Shown: piece after piece, positions 1 through 5,610 of the stretch
Layout: each line of letters opens with the position of its first letter
How positions within the stretch are numbered: the first letter of the stretch is position 1
Origin: an uncultured Clostridia bacterium
GTDB taxonomy: Bacteria > Bacillota > Clostridia > Oscillospirales > Ruminococcaceae
DNA length: 64,000 nt
Direction: 5' to 3'
Assembly (NCBI GenBank): GCA_947166275.1
Contig: CAMVDP010000002.1
Coordinates: forward strand, 1-64,000
Made by a program: the position numbers and the translations under genes
The notes under the pieces: generated by a model
Told to the model about the DNA's origin: nothing
The model's database searches: none
Seen by the model: the letters and a program-made list of their open reading frames with translations, nothing else

Positions 1-279
1 CCGAAATGTTCACATTTGTCTGCTCGTTACGAACATTCTTAACATCGGCACTTTCGGAGTTGCTGACCTCGGTCTTGTATGTCAGATCAGTGGTATCATA
101 GCGGTTATCAACGTTTCCGGCATTCGCTACAACATTCGACACGTTCGACACATTCGAAATATTCGCCGTGTCGTCGCCCGAAACGTTCACGTTTGTCTGC
201 TCGTTACGAACATTCTTAACATCGGCACTTTCAGTATTGCTGACCTCGGTCTTGTATGTCAGATCAGTGGTATCATAGT
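1..279 (-). repeat. In-frame tandem repeat, 177-bp period
   Basis: Bases 1-102 and 178-279 are the same block with about five mismatches. The period is 177 bp, or exactly 59 codons, so repeat number can change without breaking the frame. The spacer between blocks encodes short Asn-Val-Ser repeats (NVSNVSNV). More copies may continue beyond the left edge. Confidence 0.9.
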
Positions 280-934
280 GCCGCTCTATATCTCCGGCGT
301 TTATGACCGACACCTGACCGCCATCGCCGGACACGGCAGACGACACACTTTCAATAAGCTCCCGCTTGAAAACAAACCTCGGGTAGTTATTATATGTGTA
401 ATTTCCGGCAGAAAAAACACTCTCACCGGCAGCATTCAGAAAAAGCCTGCTGACAGCAGCGACATCAACGGACGATACGCGATAAGAGCGCTCGCCCTCA
501 TGTATCTCCGAGAGGTAGAAAGTATCGTTCAGCTCCTCGGTATTATCGATAAACGACAGCGCTTTGAGCACACCGCTGTACGATGTTCCGTCGGAAATAC
601 GCAGATGATCAATGGTGTGCTCTATGCGCTCCGAGACCAGCGGCAGAAGCTGCTTTGTCACAGTCGGATCGCCGAGCCTGCCATCAACTATGAGACGACG
701 CAGTATCATCAGCCGCAGGGAATAGCCTACATCGCCATGCCGTTTCTTCTCTTCCTCAAGCCGCTCCCTCATCGCATTGAAATAGATCAGGGTCTCACCG
801 GCAAAGGGGAAGGACTCGGTACCGCTGTATTTTTCTATGATCGCCGCAGCAAAGGCACTCGCTCCCGATAGAGCGAATAAGTTCGTCCGCATAGGCGAGA
901 TCAGGGCTATGTTACGTGCAGTCATACGATACAT
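1..934 (-). CDS. Unrecognised repeat-containing protein of a contractile injection system operon (partial, C-terminus beyond left edge)
   Basis: The reading frame is open from an ATG at 934 through the left edge, giving 311 visible residues. A GAGGTG ribosome binding site lies just upstream, and the start is 13 bases after the tail-tube stop codon, so it is co-transcribed with the tube gene. Residues 1-210 look globular and mixed helical, with a charged helix near residues 55-65 (ERLEEEKKR). From about residue 215 the protein turns into Asn/Val/Ser/Asp-rich repeats, one 34-residue block (DTTDLTYKTEVSN and following) occurring twice with a 59-residue period. I do not recognise the family. Its position after the tube gene suggests a structural, tail-length or effector-related part of the injection particle; that is inference from context only. 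Confidence 0.75.
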   Translation of the reverse strand, partial: MYRMTARNIALISPMRTNLFALSGASAFAAAIIEKYSGTESFPFAGETLIYFNAMRERLEEEKKRHGDVGYSLRLMILRRLIVDGRLGDPTVTKQLLPLVSERIEHTIDHLRISDGTSYSGVLKALSFIDNTEELNDTFYLSEIHEGERSYRVSSVDVAAVSRLFLNAAGESVFSAGNYTYNNYPRFVFKRELIESVSSAVSGDGGQVSVINAGDIERHYDTTDLTYKTEVSNTESADVKNVRNEQTNVNVSGDDTANISNVSNVSNVVANAGNVDNRYDTTDLTYKTEVSNSESADVKNVRNEQTNVNIS

Positions 935-947
935 CGGCACACCTCAA

Positions 948-1385
948 TCAGATCCCGAACGGAAGCGGAAGCTCCGTCATGCCGCTGTGCGCTATCTTGA
1001 GAGACTGCAGAAGCACCGCGCTTTCAAGCGAGTCGAGCGGAGAGAACTCACGCTGAACGATGACTCCGTTCGATATAAAGAACATTCGCACGGTCTTGCC
1101 GTCCCTCTTCACAGTTATGGTTATAGAGGCGATGCGCCTTCCCTCCTTGAAGAAAGCGAACGCGACATCGGAAACTGTCGTGTGGAGAGCACGTTCGAGT
1201 ATCAGATAATCCGGCGACCTCTTCGGCTTGCGCAGGACAACGGGCGAATCATTGTTGCCGCCCTCCTGGATAGTGTCCACATCTATCGCGCCGCCGAGAT
1301 TGGAGACCTTGCTGAAGCTGTATGACATTCCGTCAAAATTGACAGAGAACGAATACCCGGGAATATAATCAGAAGATGATGCCAT
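948..1385 (-). CDS. Tail tube protein of a contractile injection system (T4 gp19 family)
   Basis: This 145-residue protein has the layout of phage-tail inner tube proteins of the T4 gp19/Afp1-Afp5 type. The N-terminus reads IPGYSFSVNFDG, followed by a strand-turn region (FSKVSNLGGAIDVDTIQEGGN) and the conserved KRSPDYLILERAL segment near residue 57. Family members stack as hexameric rings inside a contractile sheath. The start ATG at 1385 follows a GGTGAG site. The gene lies 44 bases after the DUF6760 gene and 13 bases before the repeat protein, all on one strand. No sheath, baseplate or ATPase gene is visible here; they would be expected beyond the left edge. A defective prophage tail is possible but less likely, because the neighbours are injection-system-specific families. 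Confidence 0.85.
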   Translation of the reverse strand: MASSSDYIPGYSFSVNFDGMSYSFSKVSNLGGAIDVDTIQEGGNNDSPVVLRKPKRSPDYLILERALHTTVSDVAFAFFKEGRRIASITITVKRDGKTVRMFFISNGVIVQREFSPLDSLESAVLLQSLKIAHSGMTELPLPFGI

Positions 1386-1429
1386 AAGAATATCTCACCG
1401 CCAGACTCATATTGCTCCCGCCCGAAACG

Positions 1430-1606
1430 TCATATCTTGAAGATATTATCGGGCTCATCGTTAAGTTTGCTGTTTATTCTTGATATCTCCCTGCACCAGC
1501 GTTGCCGCTCCATGTGGCTGAAACGTTCTATCTCACTGTTTTGCCAGTGCATGTAGTAGCCGATGAAGGCCATTTCCTCATAGATCTTTTCCGCCGGATA
1601 TGTCAC
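1430..1606 (-). CDS. Small DUF6760-type protein of a contractile injection system
   Basis: A 58-residue protein starts with GTG at 1606, and its start overlaps the stop of the upstream chaperone gene in a GTGA junction, which points to translational coupling. The sequence begins TYPAEKIYEEMAFIGYYMHW and continues with an RQRWCREISRIN motif. This is the typical pattern of the short proteins (DUF6760) that sit next to tail tube genes in extracellular contractile injection system loci of Gram-positive bacteria. Its molecular role is not established. The chaperone-DUF6760-tube order supports the locus assignment. Confidence 0.8.
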   Translation of the reverse strand: MTYPAEKIYEEMAFIGYYMHWQNSEIERFSHMERQRWCREISRINSKLNDEPDNIFKI

Positions 1607-1974
1607 GATTCTCCGGCTTCCAGAAAATTTACCGGTATCTCTATCGGCTGACCGCAGTGAGGACAGATGGATTTGTACACAGGCATCTCCATAGTATTGA
1701 TCTTCGAATACAGATCCTGCAGATACGCAAGATCTATCGTGTACAGTCCCTCCACCACGCGGGTATCCACCGCGGGAAGTGTCCCGAGGCTCTTGATGAC
1801 CCTCGAAAGAATGATAATAGTAAGATATCCCGGGTTCTGCTGTACGCGGGGATCCTTGAGCGGGATTATCTCGTCTCCAGCGTTGGCGAGGCGCATAACG
1901 CCCTCGCGGTGCAAAACTCCGTTCGTATCGAGATATCCTTTCGGCAGAGTGAATTTAAATTCCGTTTCAAACAT
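1603..1974 (-). CDS. Tail assembly protein of a contractile injection system
   Basis: This 123-residue protein matches the tail assembly chaperone-like proteins of contractile injection system loci: it opens with FETEFKFTLPKGYLDTNG, continues with REGVMRLANAGDEI and PLKDPRVQQNPGYLTIIILSR, and ends with a C-terminal CPHCG. The Cys pair there could form part of a metal site, but only two cysteines are visible in that motif. The ATG at 1974 has a strong AAGGAGAG site. It is the first gene after the promoter at 2213-2241 and overlaps the DUF6760 gene by four bases. Family members are thought to help tube or sheath assembly; that role is taken from related systems. Confidence 0.85.
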   Translation of the reverse strand: MFETEFKFTLPKGYLDTNGVLHREGVMRLANAGDEIIPLKDPRVQQNPGYLTIIILSRVIKSLGTLPAVDTRVVEGLYTIDLAYLQDLYSKINTMEMPVYKSICPHCGQPIEIPVNFLEAGES

Positions 1975-2212
1975 GATAACGCTCTCCTTTTACGGTATTT
2001 GACAGGCTTTCATGCCTGTATTCATGCAAACAGCAAAAACAGACCATGCACAAGCCATGCTTACACAGAGTCTGCATAGTATACTGTGATCGCGGTATGA
2101 CAAAAACAAGCGTTATTAAGGAAGGATCGGGGGTCAGTGTGTTTCGTCATTTTAGTCAACCTCTTTTGTTGAATTTAGCCAAAAAAGCACAAATATCGAT
2201 TATTACATTAGT

Positions 2213-2241
2213 ATTATACCACACTTAATATGTATTTTCAA
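2213..2241 (-). promoter_or_regulatory. Sigma-A-type promoter for the injection-system operon
   Basis: On the minus strand TTGAAA and TATAAT are separated by exactly 17 bases, with a TG one base before the -10 (GTGGTATAAT). Predicted start is near 2206, giving a leader of about 230 bases before the ATG at 1974. The leader contains a 6-bp stem (ACAGGC/GCCTGT, 2002-2019) shortly upstream of the ribosome binding site. Bases 1975-2404 hold no convincing gene. Confidence 0.75.
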
Positions 2242-2433: not shown

Positions 2434-2501
2434 AAGTAAGATACAGACCGGTGATTACATATACGACCGACAAAGTCATCCGGCGAAAGGGGCTGACCAC
2501 G

Positions 2502-4463
2502 TTGCAGAACAATACAGTTACGGAAAAACGGGGATCGATCGGGCTCATACGGCAGGCATGCGGATTTTGCCGCAATCCTCGATACATAGAGGAAAGGCTC
2601 AAAGAAGCAGAAGTACGTGCGGCGATGTTCCTGTCCGCCATCGTGGCACTCGTAGAGGTGTGGATGATCTTCCGCTACATAGAGCAGTGGGTCATTCCCG
2701 GCAAGGTAGAATCCATCGGTGAGTTCTTCTACTACACAAAGTCATACTGGATACTGTTCGCGGTATGCACGGCTGTGTTCATCTACACGGTGCTGTATAT
2801 ACGCGGCAGGATGCGCCTTCTGAGAAAAGCCAGCCGGTTCATAATACTCCTGTTCTTCGCGATCGGAATGTATTTCGGCATCATCACCTCAATGAAGGAC
2901 TTCTCAAAGGGCAGAATGATAACCTGCTACCTCACAATGCTGATGTGGGCTACCGTTATCTGCATTTGGAGGCCTTTCACCTCTGTGCTGCTCACCGTTA
3001 TCTGCGGCTATGGCTTCATTTGGCTGGTCAACACCTTCACATTCACCAAAACCGGTGAACAGCTCCAGATGAGCGAGGGCGACACGATAAACTATATCAC
3101 GTTCCTTATCATAATCATCATACTCCAGCTCGCAGTGTACTTCCAGAGATACGGCGACGCGTCAAAGTCATACCAGATCAGGCTTGCCTCGGTGACCGAC
3201 GATCTCACCGGCATGCCCAACATGAGAAAGTTCTCCGAGGACGCACATGCGTACTGTGCAGAGTGTCTTGCCAGAGACAGACACCCGATGTACCTCGTGT
3301 TCGACATCGGCAGCTTCCGCACCTTCAATGATCGCTTCGGCTACGCAGGAGGCGACGCGCTGCTCATCAGAACGGGACAGCTGATAACCGAGGCTTTCCC
3401 CGGTGAGCCGGTGGCAAGAGAGACCGCAGACCGCTTCTGCGTGCTCACCGATGCCGACGACTGTCGCGAGCGCGCCGGGAAAGTGCGTGAGACGCTTCTC
3501 GCGGAGTACCCGGAGGAGACATACCTCGACCTGCTGGTGGGCGCTTACGCAGCTGCCGAAGTCGCGTCGGACGTTCGCCATGACGTCGACCGCGCAGACT
3601 ACGCGCTCAACACTATAAGCGACAACGACTACTTCCGCGTGTACGACGAAAAAATGAGCAAGGACCACCAGTTAAGGCAGTACGTGCTCAACAACCTCGA
3701 AAAAGCTATCCGGGAAGGCTATATCAAAGTTTACCGTCAGCCCGTCATGGACGCGAAGGACGGCACTATCTGCGGCTGTGAGGCTCTCGCAAGGTGGATA
3801 GACCCGGAGTTCGGATTTCTGTCACCCGGACTGTTCATACCGGTGCTCGAAGAGGAGCACCGTATACACAAGCTCGACCTGTGCATATACGAACAGGTGT
3901 GCAGACAGATACGCGAGTGCCTTGACAACGGCATTCCCGCACTCCCTACGTCGATGAACTTCTCACGGCTGGACTTTGAGCTCATGGACGCGGTCGGAGA
4001 GCTCGAAGCGCTCGTAGCAAAATACAACATTCCGAAGGAATACCTTCACGTAGAGATAACCGAAAGCACACTCACCAACGATGTTGCAGGGCTCAAAACA
4101 GCCATGGACAGGCTGCACAGCGCAGGATATGTGATCTGGCTCGACGATTTCGGTTCGGGTTACTCTTCGCTCAACGTACTGAAGGATTTCAAATTTGATC
4201 TGCTCAAGATAGACATGGAGTTTCTGAAGAATTTCAGTGGCAACGACAACGCCCGTAGGATCATCGGAAGCATCATCGACCTTGCAGACAAGCTCGGTAT
4301 GCAGACACTCTGTGAGGGCGTGGAGACGCAGGATGCCGTTGATTTCCTGCGTGAAGCCGGCTGCGGCAGACTTCAGGGCTACTTCTACGGCAAGCCCATG
4401 CCGTACGAGGAGATCCTCGAAAAGATCAAAGACGGCACCTACAAGCTCGGCGACCTGCACTGA
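2502..4463 (+). CDS. Membrane EAL-domain c-di-GMP phosphodiesterase with degenerate GGDEF
   Basis: The protein has an N-terminal membrane region of about five to six segments (through about residue 225), a degenerate GGDEF domain, and a C-terminal EAL domain. In the GGDEF domain the signature is replaced by ETADRF, so cyclase activity is unlikely. The EAL domain keeps the catalytic pattern: EALARW, NFSRLD, EITES, DDFGSGYSSL, LLKID, EGVET and LQGYFYGKP. It should therefore hydrolyse c-di-GMP to pGpG, perhaps under control of the membrane region or GTP binding by the degenerate domain. I chose TTG at 2502 because GAAAGGGG precedes it by eight bases; the longer frame from GTG at 2451 begins almost at the predicted transcription start. 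It is a single-gene unit with its own promoter and terminator. Confidence 0.9.
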   Translation: MQNNTVTEKRGSIGLIRQACGFCRNPRYIEERLKEAEVRAAMFLSAIVALVEVWMIFRYIEQWVIPGKVESIGEFFYYTKSYWILFAVCTAVFIYTVLYIRGRMRLLRKASRFIILLFFAIGMYFGIITSMKDFSKGRMITCYLTMLMWATVICIWRPFTSVLLTVICGYGFIWLVNTFTFTKTGEQLQMSEGDTINYITFLIIIIILQLAVYFQRYGDASKSYQIRLASVTDDLTGMPNMRKFSEDAHAYCAECLARDRHPMYLVFDIGSFRTFNDRFGYAGGDALLIRTGQLITEAFPGEPVARETADRFCVLTDADDCRERAGKVRETLLAEYPEETYLDLLVGAYAAAEVASDVRHDVDRADYALNTISDNDYFRVYDEKMSKDHQLRQYVLNNLEKAIREGYIKVYRQPVMDAKDGTICGCEALARWIDPEFGFLSPGLFIPVLEEEHRIHKLDLCIYEQVCRQIRECLDNGIPALPTSMNFSRLDFELMDAVGELEALVAKYNIPKEYLHVEITESTLTNDVAGLKTAMDRLHSAGYVIWLDDFGSGYSSLNVLKDFKFDLLKIDMEFLKNFSGNDNARRIIGSIIDLADKLGMQTLCEGVETQDAVDFLREAGCGRLQGYFYGKPMPYEEILEKIKDGTYKLGDLH

Positions 4464-4509: not shown

Positions 4510-5610
4510 TCACACAAAATCCACTTTTATCCGGTTCCTGCCGTCGAAGCTGTAGCTTCTGCCGGCAGCGAGCTTATCTATAAGCATCACGGAAAGCTCA
4601 TCACCGTCTTCGAACGGATCGTAGCGTTCACCGCCATAGGCTATCGTCATCATTGTAGTCTCATCGGCATCAGAATGCTCAACACAGACATTTATCGGGA
4701 AACCGCTGCCGCTGTGCTCAAGCGACCCTATTATGTTCTGCGCCACCAGCTCCTCAAACGCGAGCTCAAGGTCACGCACGCGCTTCGGGGCAAGCATGTT
4801 GTCTCTGCCGAACTGCGCTATCTGCGAATCAAAGCCGATAAAATCATAATCCATCGTTTTTATCTCAAGGTCGAGCCGCTTCAGGCGCTTGATGAATATG
4901 CGTGTCTTTTCACGAAGCGGAGCATTGAATATCTGGTCCGGCGTGCCTTCCTCATAGACGCCGCCCTCGTCCATGTAGAATATACGATTGGAAACATCAT
5001 GCGCGAACTTCATTTCGTGCGTGACTATCATCATGGTCATGCCTTCCTTTGCAAGGTTCCTGATGACCGCGAGCACCTCGCCCACCATCGTCGGGTCGAG
5101 CGCAGATGTAGGCTCGTCAAACAGCAGTATCTCCGGGCGCATGGCTATTGCGCGTGCTATTGCCACACGCTGCTTCTGACCGCCGGAAAGCTGGTCGGGA
5201 TAGTTGTTCGCTTTCTCCGCGAGGCCGACGCGCTTGAGAAGCTCCATCGCTTCCCTGTACGCCTGTTCCTTCGGCGTTTTGAGCAGGTTTATCGGAGCTG
5301 AAGCTACATTTTCTATGATAGAAAGGTTTGAAAACAGGTTGAAGGACTGGAACACCATTCCCATTTTGCGGCGAACAAGCGTTATATCGCATTTCGGGTC
5401 TGTAATGACCTTGCCGTCCACCGTGACAGTGCCGGAGGTAGGCTCCTCAAGCTGGTTGAGACAGCGCAGCAGCGTGGACTTTCCCGTTCCGGACGGACCG
5501 ATCACCGATATAACGTCGCCCTTGTTTATCTCAACAGTCACATCCTTGAGCGGGGTAACATTCGGGTACTCCTTACGCAGATGATCGATCTTTATCATAC
5601 ATTCTGACAT
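4510..5610 (-). CDS. Amino-acid-type ABC transporter ATPase fused to an RsbW-like histidine-kinase-type ATPase domain
   Basis: Residues 1-240 are a polar amino acid transporter ATPase of the GlnQ type: Walker A GPSGTGKST, Q-loop VFQSFNLF, signature LSGGQKQR, Walker B ILLFDEP and the H-loop VTHEM. GlnQ proteins usually end near residue 245. Here about 120 further residues follow and look like an RsbW/anti-sigma type GHKL domain: N-box-like FEELVAQNI, a G1-like YGGERYDPF, and a G2-like FDGRNRI. The Asp that normally opens the G1 box is Tyr, so nucleotide binding there is doubtful. No permease or binding protein lies nearby. The ATG at 5610 has AGAAAGAAG upstream; ATG at 5598 and GTG at 5619 are alternatives. 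A weak TTGCGC-17-TAGAAT promoter precedes it. Confidence 0.85.
   Translation of the reverse strand: MSECMIKIDHLRKEYPNVTPLKDVTVEINKGDVISVIGPSGTGKSTLLRCLNQLEEPTSGTVTVDGKVITDPKCDITLVRRKMGMVFQSFNLFSNLSIIENVASAPINLLKTPKEQAYREAMELLKRVGLAEKANNYPDQLSGGQKQRVAIARAIAMRPEILLFDEPTSALDPTMVGEVLAVIRNLAKEGMTMMIVTHEMKFAHDVSNRIFYMDEGGVYEEGTPDQIFNAPLREKTRIFIKRLKRLDLEIKTMDYDFIGFDSQIAQFGRDNMLAPKRVRDLELAFEELVAQNIIGSLEHSGSGFPINVCVEHSDADETTMMTIAYGGERYDPFEDGDELSVMLIDKLAAGRSYSFDGRNRIKVDFV

Follow-up and report, generated by a model that had tools for sequence, protein, structure and literature searches.

A contractile injection system operon divided between two contigs of a Clostridia genome, and a kinase-like and MORN-repeat protein pair as its possible anchor in the cell envelope

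Four genes on the minus strand run off the left edge of a stretch of 64,000 nucleotides from an uncultured Clostridia bacterium (hereafter, the window). They encode a tail-assembly-chaperone-like protein (P0001, gene 1), a DUF6760 protein (P0002), a second tube protein (P0003, tube 2) and the first part of a fourth protein (P0004, gene 4). To which machine do they belong, where is the rest of it, and how might it work? An earlier note on this DNA, made from the letters alone, had taken them for the start of a contractile injection system (CIS) operon in a Ruminococcus-like genome, and the gene order and the run-off are indeed as it described. Judged from its sequence, the locus almost certainly encodes a CIS. 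Our preferred explanation, which we consider reasonably probable, is a complete CIS operon whose product would work docked at the membrane.

The window is C2:1-64000, i.e., the start of a contig of the source genome (G000; 1.88 Mb in 49 contigs, 81% complete), and its left edge is therefore a contig end. The four genes very probably continue on a second contig, C11 (55,784 bases), where the operon resumes as a single run of plus-strand genes (Table 1). The two contigs end in one repeat within gene 4: the end of C2 and the start of C11 are 93.5% identical across 124 bp (C2:1-124 on the minus strand; C11:1-124), C2 has its copies 177 bp apart and C11 168 bp apart, and when the genome was searched at the DNA level, the repeat turned up at these two ends only. 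The assembly would have broken in this repeat, leaving the remaining ~34 kb of the operon on C11. In four relatives the gene run passes unbroken through gene 4 into the matching downstream genes, up to MORN in G052 and G068, up to the first Baseplate_J gene (where the stretch ends) in G038, and up to Pvc16 in G087. Three metagenome-assembled genomes (MAGs; G057, G011 and G050) break at the matching place, with the chaperone gene 1.8-2.2 kb from the contig start and gene 4 running off the contig, as seen in the first 2.6 kb of each. One point weighs against continuity: no exact overlap between the ends of C2 and C11 was reported, and the join is for this reason one that we infer.

The genes on C11 include those that the earlier note had advised searching for beyond position 1, i.e., sheath, LysM, spike, baseplate and AAA+ genes, together with a tube gene (tube 1), Pvc16 and a PAAR-like protein. 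We scanned 30 operon proteins with Pfam (4 from the window and 26 from C11), and compared them with known CIS using phmmer against the PDB and the NCBIfam CIS models. The sheath, both tubes, the spike, gp25, the second Baseplate_J, Tail_P2_I, Pvc16_N, DUF4280 and AAA exceed the Pfam cut-offs. The cluster thus has the parts of a CIS: a sheath, inner tubes, a spike, a baseplate and a PAAR-like tip, and the Pvc16/DUF4255 protein with an AAA+ ATPase. Its sheath is the sole PF04984 match in the genome, which has just two PF06841 tube proteins over the cut-off: tube 2 on C2 and tube 1 on C11. The best solved match of the sheath is 9ezm (431 bits, E 4.7e-128), followed by 8bky (367 bits), 8bl4 (358), 9qgl (190) and Pvc2 (177). 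We take 8bky and 8bl4 to be sheaths of Streptomyces CIS.

The order of chaperone, tube, LysM, gpD, gp25, J and I genes resembles that of myophage tails, and a prophage or an R-type tailocin would be the obvious alternative to a CIS. We rejected it as very improbable: no portal, terminase or capsid family was matched among the 30 operon proteins, the sheath scores only 56 bits with pyocin and 49 bits with T4-type gp18, Pvc16, DUF4280 and AAA genes are present, and the operon is flanked by an ABC transporter and a GGDEF/EAL gene. The findings that the earlier note had named as fatal to its proposal (head genes, or no sheath gene, beyond the edge) were thus not made. The same scans gave no TssJLM or ClpV family, in a search for these that was confined to the 30 operon proteins, which argues against a canonical type VI secretion system (T6SS) with its membrane complex and ClpV.

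Which known CIS is closest? We tied 9ezm to a haloarchaeal system through the naming of 9EZM in PMC11566945. According to that paper, the CIS of Halogeometricum borinquense (an archaeal T6SS of clade IIa) is bound to the cytoplasmic membrane, clade IIa previously had no characterised member, and Bacillota are nearest to it in the Cis11 tree. The ranking of solved sheaths would point to clade IIa for the present system. With the extracellular CIS (eCIS) Afp, PVC and MAC it shares the sheath, the tubes, a small protein of DUF6760 type, LysM/CIS_tube, the spike, gp25, J, Pvc16 and AAA. It differs from them in that the sheath scores far lower with Pvc2 and Afp2-4, and in that the sheath and tube 1 genes of this rumen group lie at the 3' end.

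A scan of genome contigs for sheath relatives gave 204, of which the best 80 were kept. These comprise 22 loci at 81-96% identity (L009-L029, L050), many labelled as coming from ruminants, and 58 loci at 71-77%, mostly labelled Lachnospiraceae and Oscillospiraceae. Sheaths 95-96% identical occur in MAGs labelled Ruminiclostridium or Clostridia, and at 81-84% Ruminococcus is among the labels, which fits the Ruminococcus-like genome of the earlier note. The chaperone gene follows tube 1 in 51 of the 80 loci and tube 2 follows without a chaperone in four, ten being too short to tell. In the other 15, neither gene is found within 2.5 kb after tube 1 (where 1.5 kb or more could be read). The sheaths of these 15 loci all reach 81% identity, and wherever a locus with so close a sheath is long enough to judge, the usual order is absent; the permuted operon, with the chaperone first and the sheath and tube 1 last, thus belongs to this group. 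The sets of loci and of genomes are not independent, since some loci and genomes coincide in their coordinates and probably stem from one and the same record. Another arrangement occurs in L060, L063, L066, L068, L069, L076, L078 and L079, where AAA2-like and SARP-like genes lie on the strand opposite to the sheath.

The operon also encodes a protein distantly similar to kinases, directly upstream of a MORN-repeat protein. The kinase-like protein matches no Pfam family at cut-off and has one strong hydrophobic stretch near its C-terminus (best window 2.32), comparable stretches being found in the MORN (3.03) and SpoIIE (2.84) proteins, with all other operon proteins at or below 1.85. A profile of 23 members aligned to 18 PrkC kinase domains with 71% hhalign probability (P 3.7e-5), while none of nine other families exceeded 0.25%. 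Its PDB matches are weak (NEK1, titin, PAK1 and PAK2, E 0.04-1.4) and stand alongside unrelated helical chains. Of the two catalytic motifs of an active Ser/Thr protein kinase, HRD is found in none and DFG in one of 20 rows, compared with 17 (HRD) and 18 (DFG) of the 18 PrkC controls. It is most likely a pseudokinase. More lysines and arginines precede than follow the helix in 18/20 rows, and in one locus (L140) the kinase-like domain, helix and MORN repeats are fused in one protein, from which we place the kinase-like domain inside the cell and the MORN repeats outside. By script, 18 of 21 kinase-like loci were found to have, as the next gene, one for a MORN protein with a hydrophobic stretch. 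The other three are L140 with its fusion, L128, where a helix and a MORN-like start appear in another frame reading, and L121, which shares the coordinates of the G087 locus and in which the MORN open reading frame (ORF) starts before the kinase-like gene ends.

The kinase-like protein follows the sheath across genomes. It is present in all 20 CIS genomes picked from the best 80 loci, most weakly in G159 and G160. Among 149 relatives, 19 are sheath-positive, and it is matched at E<1e-10 in 17 of these (all but G044 and G145) and in none of the 130 sheath-negative ones (Fisher P 1.8e-20). Two sheath-negative genomes give weak matches, one of them (G014) in a true kinase gene; when both are counted, P is 3e-18. 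In a class sample of 391 genomes, 24 have some sheath match, eight of them at 52% identity or more (G000, G035, G193, G254, G325, G365, G386 and G498), and six of these eight carry the kinase-like protein on the sheath contig. The remaining 16 genomes, whose sheaths are more distant, yield a single kinase-like match, in G362 and away from the sheath contig.

Several results weigh against reading it as an inactive protein specific to this machine. DFG is present in one of the 20 rows; the association test is not fully independent, since five of the 17 genomes gave rows to the profile; G193 and G498 lack the protein on their sheath contigs; and ten class-sample genomes without any sheath match have kinase-like matches at E<1e-10, with more at weaker values. 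In five of these ten sheathless cases (L164, L165, L166, L167 and L168), we distinguished by eye a kinase-like domain and a helix, with outer parts resembling PKD or LysM. The kinase-like protein of the CIS is thus a branch of a wider bitopic family, found also in Clostridia without a sheath. The genome of G193 carries two different CIS-type sheaths on its contig C1 (3188740-3190284 and 3570393-3572672), ~46% and 52-58% identical, in pieces, to the sheath of C11.

EssB/YukC of type VIIb secretion is also a membrane pseudokinase, with a cytoplasmic kinase-like domain and one membrane helix like those described here. We rejected this identity: PF10140 gave no match at E<=1 in 10 kinase-like proteins and none anywhere in G000, with a positive control in Bacillus subtilis. 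The nearest relatives found outside CIS are instead the Clostridia proteins described above, whose outer parts are PKD-like or LysM-like. No kinase-like relatives were found in viral contigs among 64 pattern matches. In a defence library to which nine proteins were given, the kinase-like protein had one weak match (PD-T4-6, E 7e-4), and the second AAA protein of the operon matched IetA, TRIP13 and others, which we read as general AAA similarity.

How would such a machine act? We lean towards a cell-associated system, given the hydrophobic stretches in three operon proteins and the absence of any lysis family from the Pfam scans. Docking at the membrane is a plausible guess, since the best sheath match is membrane-bound and since Streptomyces CIS use CisA, which according to PMC12237407 is bitopic, required for firing and encoded at the fibre position of other eCIS. 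To docking, as opposed to release or self-killing, we give slightly less than an even chance. In the mechanism that we propose, the parts would assemble in the cytoplasm as a sheath-tube syringe, with P0001, DUF6760 and tube 2 forming the tube-baseplate junction, and gene 4 (mostly helical ends and a variable spacer) setting or filling the tube. The baseplate would most likely be held at the cytoplasmic side of the membrane by the bitopic kinase-like protein, whose outer end would meet a MORN-repeat rod reaching into the cell wall, and the SARP/BTAD regulator and SpoIIE-type membrane phosphatase of the operon would control production. The kinase-like and MORN pair may thus dock the machine to the cell envelope. 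Known anchors differ from this pair: in PMC11566945 the candidate anchor of H. borinquense has six predicted helices, and in PMC12237407 CisA is reported to join an unstructured cytoplasmic part through one helix to an outer domain of solute-binding-like type, where the present pair would have a kinase-like domain inside and MORN repeats outside. The likeness to the Streptomyces CIS (PMC10066040 and PMC12237407) lies in the Gram-positive host and in a bitopic membrane protein at the fibre position.

Two other modes of action have to be weighed against membrane docking, and we think both unlikely. The system could be an ordinary extracellular CIS, whose particles leave the cell by lysis and use fibres to fire on a target cell, with a purely regulatory role for the kinase-like and MORN proteins. 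All core eCIS genes are present, the N-terminal CIS13 match (88.8 bits, cut-off 370) stands at the expected place of a fibre gene, and fibre domains of Bacillota eCIS are reported in PMC12923769. However, no lysis family was matched among the 30 operon proteins (release could use genes elsewhere), and two bitopic proteins are conserved directly behind the baseplate. Less probable still is self-killing under stress by a cytoplasmic CIS like that of Streptomyces, in which the kinase-like and MORN proteins would together stand in for CisA. The pair does sit behind the Tail_P2_I and CIS13-like genes, and the putative Streptomyces sheaths are the second and third best solved matches, but among solved sheaths the haloarchaeal one, from a membrane-bound system, is closer.

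The function of gene 4 allows two readings. It has no match at or above cut-off in Pfam, PHROGs, NCBIfam or the PDB. The earlier note had not recognised it from described clusters; it is no oddity, being a regular and very length-variable member of such clusters. Among 46 loci in which tube 2 and CIS_tube/LysM neighbours were found (41 of the best 80, plus L110, L111, L112, L113 and L120), gene 4 is at its position in 41. Its product ranges from 172 to 2136 aa (median 1159), with a coefficient of variation of 0.50, compared with 0.03-0.24 in eight other families; individual lengths may be inaccurate, as a few loci have a split ORF, N or an uncertain start. The ends are alike across loci (FA..I..KY near the start, E.L.LER.RRG at the end), and the middle is repeat-rich and lineage-specific. 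A short gene 4 product (L065, 244 aa, 8 rows) was predicted as nearly all helix with pLDDT 64.8 and pTM 0.27, and the first 214 residues of the one in the window (14 rows) with pLDDT 55.3 and pTM 0.43, only residues ~61-130, which are helical, being above 70. The predicted structures are too weak for naming a fold.

Myophages such as PBSX have their tape measure gene at the position that matches gene 4. No protein of the operon was recognised in the Pfam scans as an Afp14-type tape measure, whose slot gene 4 holds. PMC11566945 and PMC10066040 report, respectively, haloarchaeal CIS without a recognised tape measure and Streptomyces CIS with no typical one. To a tape-measure or tube-filling role of gene 4 we give somewhat less than an even chance. 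Spacers unlike one another between lineages, a twelvefold range of lengths and the absence of the gene from five of the 46 loci (L034, L038, L041, L061 and L084, where DUF6760 was not seen either) are awkward for a tape measure and count against this role. The same length range, lineage-specific repeats and absences would suit a cargo or tether, whose conserved ends bind tube 2 or CIS_tube/LysM and whose variable middle is carried or displayed, and PMC8213781 describes two Firmicutes whose eCIS-associated antibacterial genes are of a type left unexplained, one of them, in Ruminiclostridium cellulolyticum, being a conceivable relative of gene 4. However, gene 4 lies between tube 2 and LysM, while eCIS toxins tend towards the 3' end in the same survey, and no toxin family was matched; a cargo or tether is possible, and we hold it to be rather doubtful. 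The range of lengths would allow one to test how length is set in CIS that lack a recognised tape measure. Taken as a whole, the picture of a cell-anchored Gram-positive counterpart of the T6SS in rumen and gut Clostridia, docked by a pseudokinase, with a MORN rod through the wall and its length set by gene 4, is speculative and rather unlikely to hold in every part.

CIS clusters of Firmicutes are already known, and less expected here is the kinase-like protein beside a membrane-anchored MORN protein. PMC8213781 surveys such clusters, with genes of Paenibacillus and Ruminiclostridium and BTAD regulators among its entries, and fibres of Bacillota are mentioned in PMC12923769. In the open-access papers searched, contractile injection was never paired with a pseudokinase or MORN repeat, nor a contractile injection system with Ruminococcus. 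The single paper that pairs it with Lachnospir does no more than cite a CIS paper, and a pairing with rumen occurs in this paper and in two whose titles point to other subjects. The text of a metagenome survey of CIS (PMC12210884) names no Firmicutes, Bacillota, Lachnospir-, Rumino-, rumen or Clostridia, and that of AlgoCIS (PMC8894135) has no tape measure, Firmicutes or Clostridi-. The close sheath relatives are labelled as rumen, abomasum, rabbit (Lapin) and mouse-associated Clostridia, despite the depletion of eCIS operons in mammalian and avian microbiomes given in PMC8213781. The wider question is how a CIS in a Gram-positive cell makes contact with the membrane of that cell: Streptomyces needs CisA, and haloarchaea perhaps the six-helix protein. 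The kinase-like protein is carried, for example, by the isolates Petralouisia muris (L063) and Sporofaciens musculi (L060), and a conserved candidate pair in named isolates would make this question directly approachable.

At the other end of the operon, the P0001 side is the 5' end of the gene run, given a divergent GGDEF/EAL gene upstream (2451-4463, plus strand). P0001 was matched at E<1e-19 in 16 of the 149 relatives, all 16 among the 19 sheath-positive ones, and has no solved relative in the PDB (best E 0.47, unrelated); the best solved match of P0003 is Pvc5 (6j0n, E 5.4e-4). The earlier note had these genes translationally coupled behind one promoter. Coupling is less well supported than this suggests, as genes 1 and 2 alone overlap (by 4 nt), with gaps of 44 nt between genes 2 and 3 and of 7 nt between genes 3 and 4. 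A promoter upstream of the operon is plausible, the sequence upstream of gene 1 having a sigma-70-like match at 11 of 12 consensus positions. However, the 600-bp stretch that was scanned holds four matches, compared with 2.0 (sd 1.5) in shuffles, which gives no evidence of function, and a terminator-like hairpin (2067-2047, minus strand) lies between the promoter-like match and gene 1.

Table 1. Features of the operon and their coordinates in the window and on contig C11.
Feature	Location	Strand	Remarks
Promoter-like match (TTGAAA, 17 nt, TATAAT)	2213..2241	-	sigma-70-like, 11/12 consensus positions
P0001, tail-assembly-chaperone-like	1603..1974	-	123 aa; PHROG 508, E 2.5e-5; C-terminal CPHC ribbon (by eye)
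P0002, DUF6760	1430..1606	-	58 aa; PF20546, 53.3 bits (cut-off 27), E 2.9e-14
P0003, second tube (Pvc5-like)	948..1385	-	145 aa; Phage_T4_gp19 PF06841, 34.2 bits (cut-off 28.2), E 2.6e-8
P0004, first part of gene 4	2..940	-	313 codons, open at the edge; continues at C11:1-2001
Repeat copy within gene 4	178..278	-	95% identical to 1-101, 177 bp apart
Repeat copy at contig end	1..101	-	pairs with C11:1-124 via 1-124
Gene 4, remainder	C11:1-2001	+	
CIS_tube with weak LysM	C11:2029-2766	+	
VgrG-like hub	C11:2794-3873	+	NCBIfam match below cut-off, no Pfam
Phage_base_V spike	C11:3904-4680	+	Pfam, over cut-off
gp25	C11:4704-5120	+	Pfam, over cut-off
Baseplate_J, first	C11:5144-8116	+	20.1 bits, just under the cut-off of 21.1
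Baseplate_J, second	C11:8143-10203	+	Pfam, over cut-off
Tail_P2_I	C11:10253-11413	+	Pfam, over cut-off
Protein with CIS13-like start	C11:11410-13119	+	N-terminal NCBI CIS13 match, 88.8 bits, below cut-off of 370
Kinase-like	C11:13166-14017	+	283 aa
MORN	C11:14027-16885	+	
Pvc16_N	C11:16899-17498	+	83 bits, over Pfam cut-off
Weak carboxypeptidase-regulatory match	C11:17504-18274	+	
DUF4280 (PAAR-like)	C11:18290-18676	+	Pfam, over cut-off
Protein without family	C11:18700-19506	+	268 aa
SpoIIE with weak HAMP, Cache	C11:19531-21252	+	
AAA with WHD	C11, up to 23485	+	>104 bits
Two weakly YbjN-like proteins	C11:23439-24512	+	E 0.003-0.005, below cut-off
Lys/Ala-rich protein without family	C11:24530-26206	+	558 aa
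BTAD regulator	C11:26210-28339	+	
Second AAA	C11:28336-30267	+	>104 bits
Protein without family	C11:30264-31097	+	277 aa
Sheath	C11:31230-32933	+	PF04984 75.7 bits, PF17482 62.9 bits, both over cut-off
Tube 1	C11:32955-33377	+	PF06841, over cut-off
SH3 protein	C11:33420-33896	+	

A few observations concern the neighbours of the main parts. In the middle of the C11 run, the YbjN-like pair is followed by the Lys/Ala-rich protein, and an arrangement of chaperone and cargo is conceivable; a further match to the Lys/Ala-rich protein occurs after the SH3 gene in L011, L012 and L014. The divergent GGDEF/EAL gene might be linked to control of the CIS. On C11 the SH3 gene is followed by the ABC transporter on the opposite strand. 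The ABC ATPases that flank the two contig ends of the operon (window 4510-5607, minus strand; C11:33968-35062, minus strand) are paralogous, being 46% identical across 345 aa, and share an additional C-terminal region; that of the C11 copy has a weak match to a histidine-kinase-like ATPase family (HATPase_c_2, E 4e-4).

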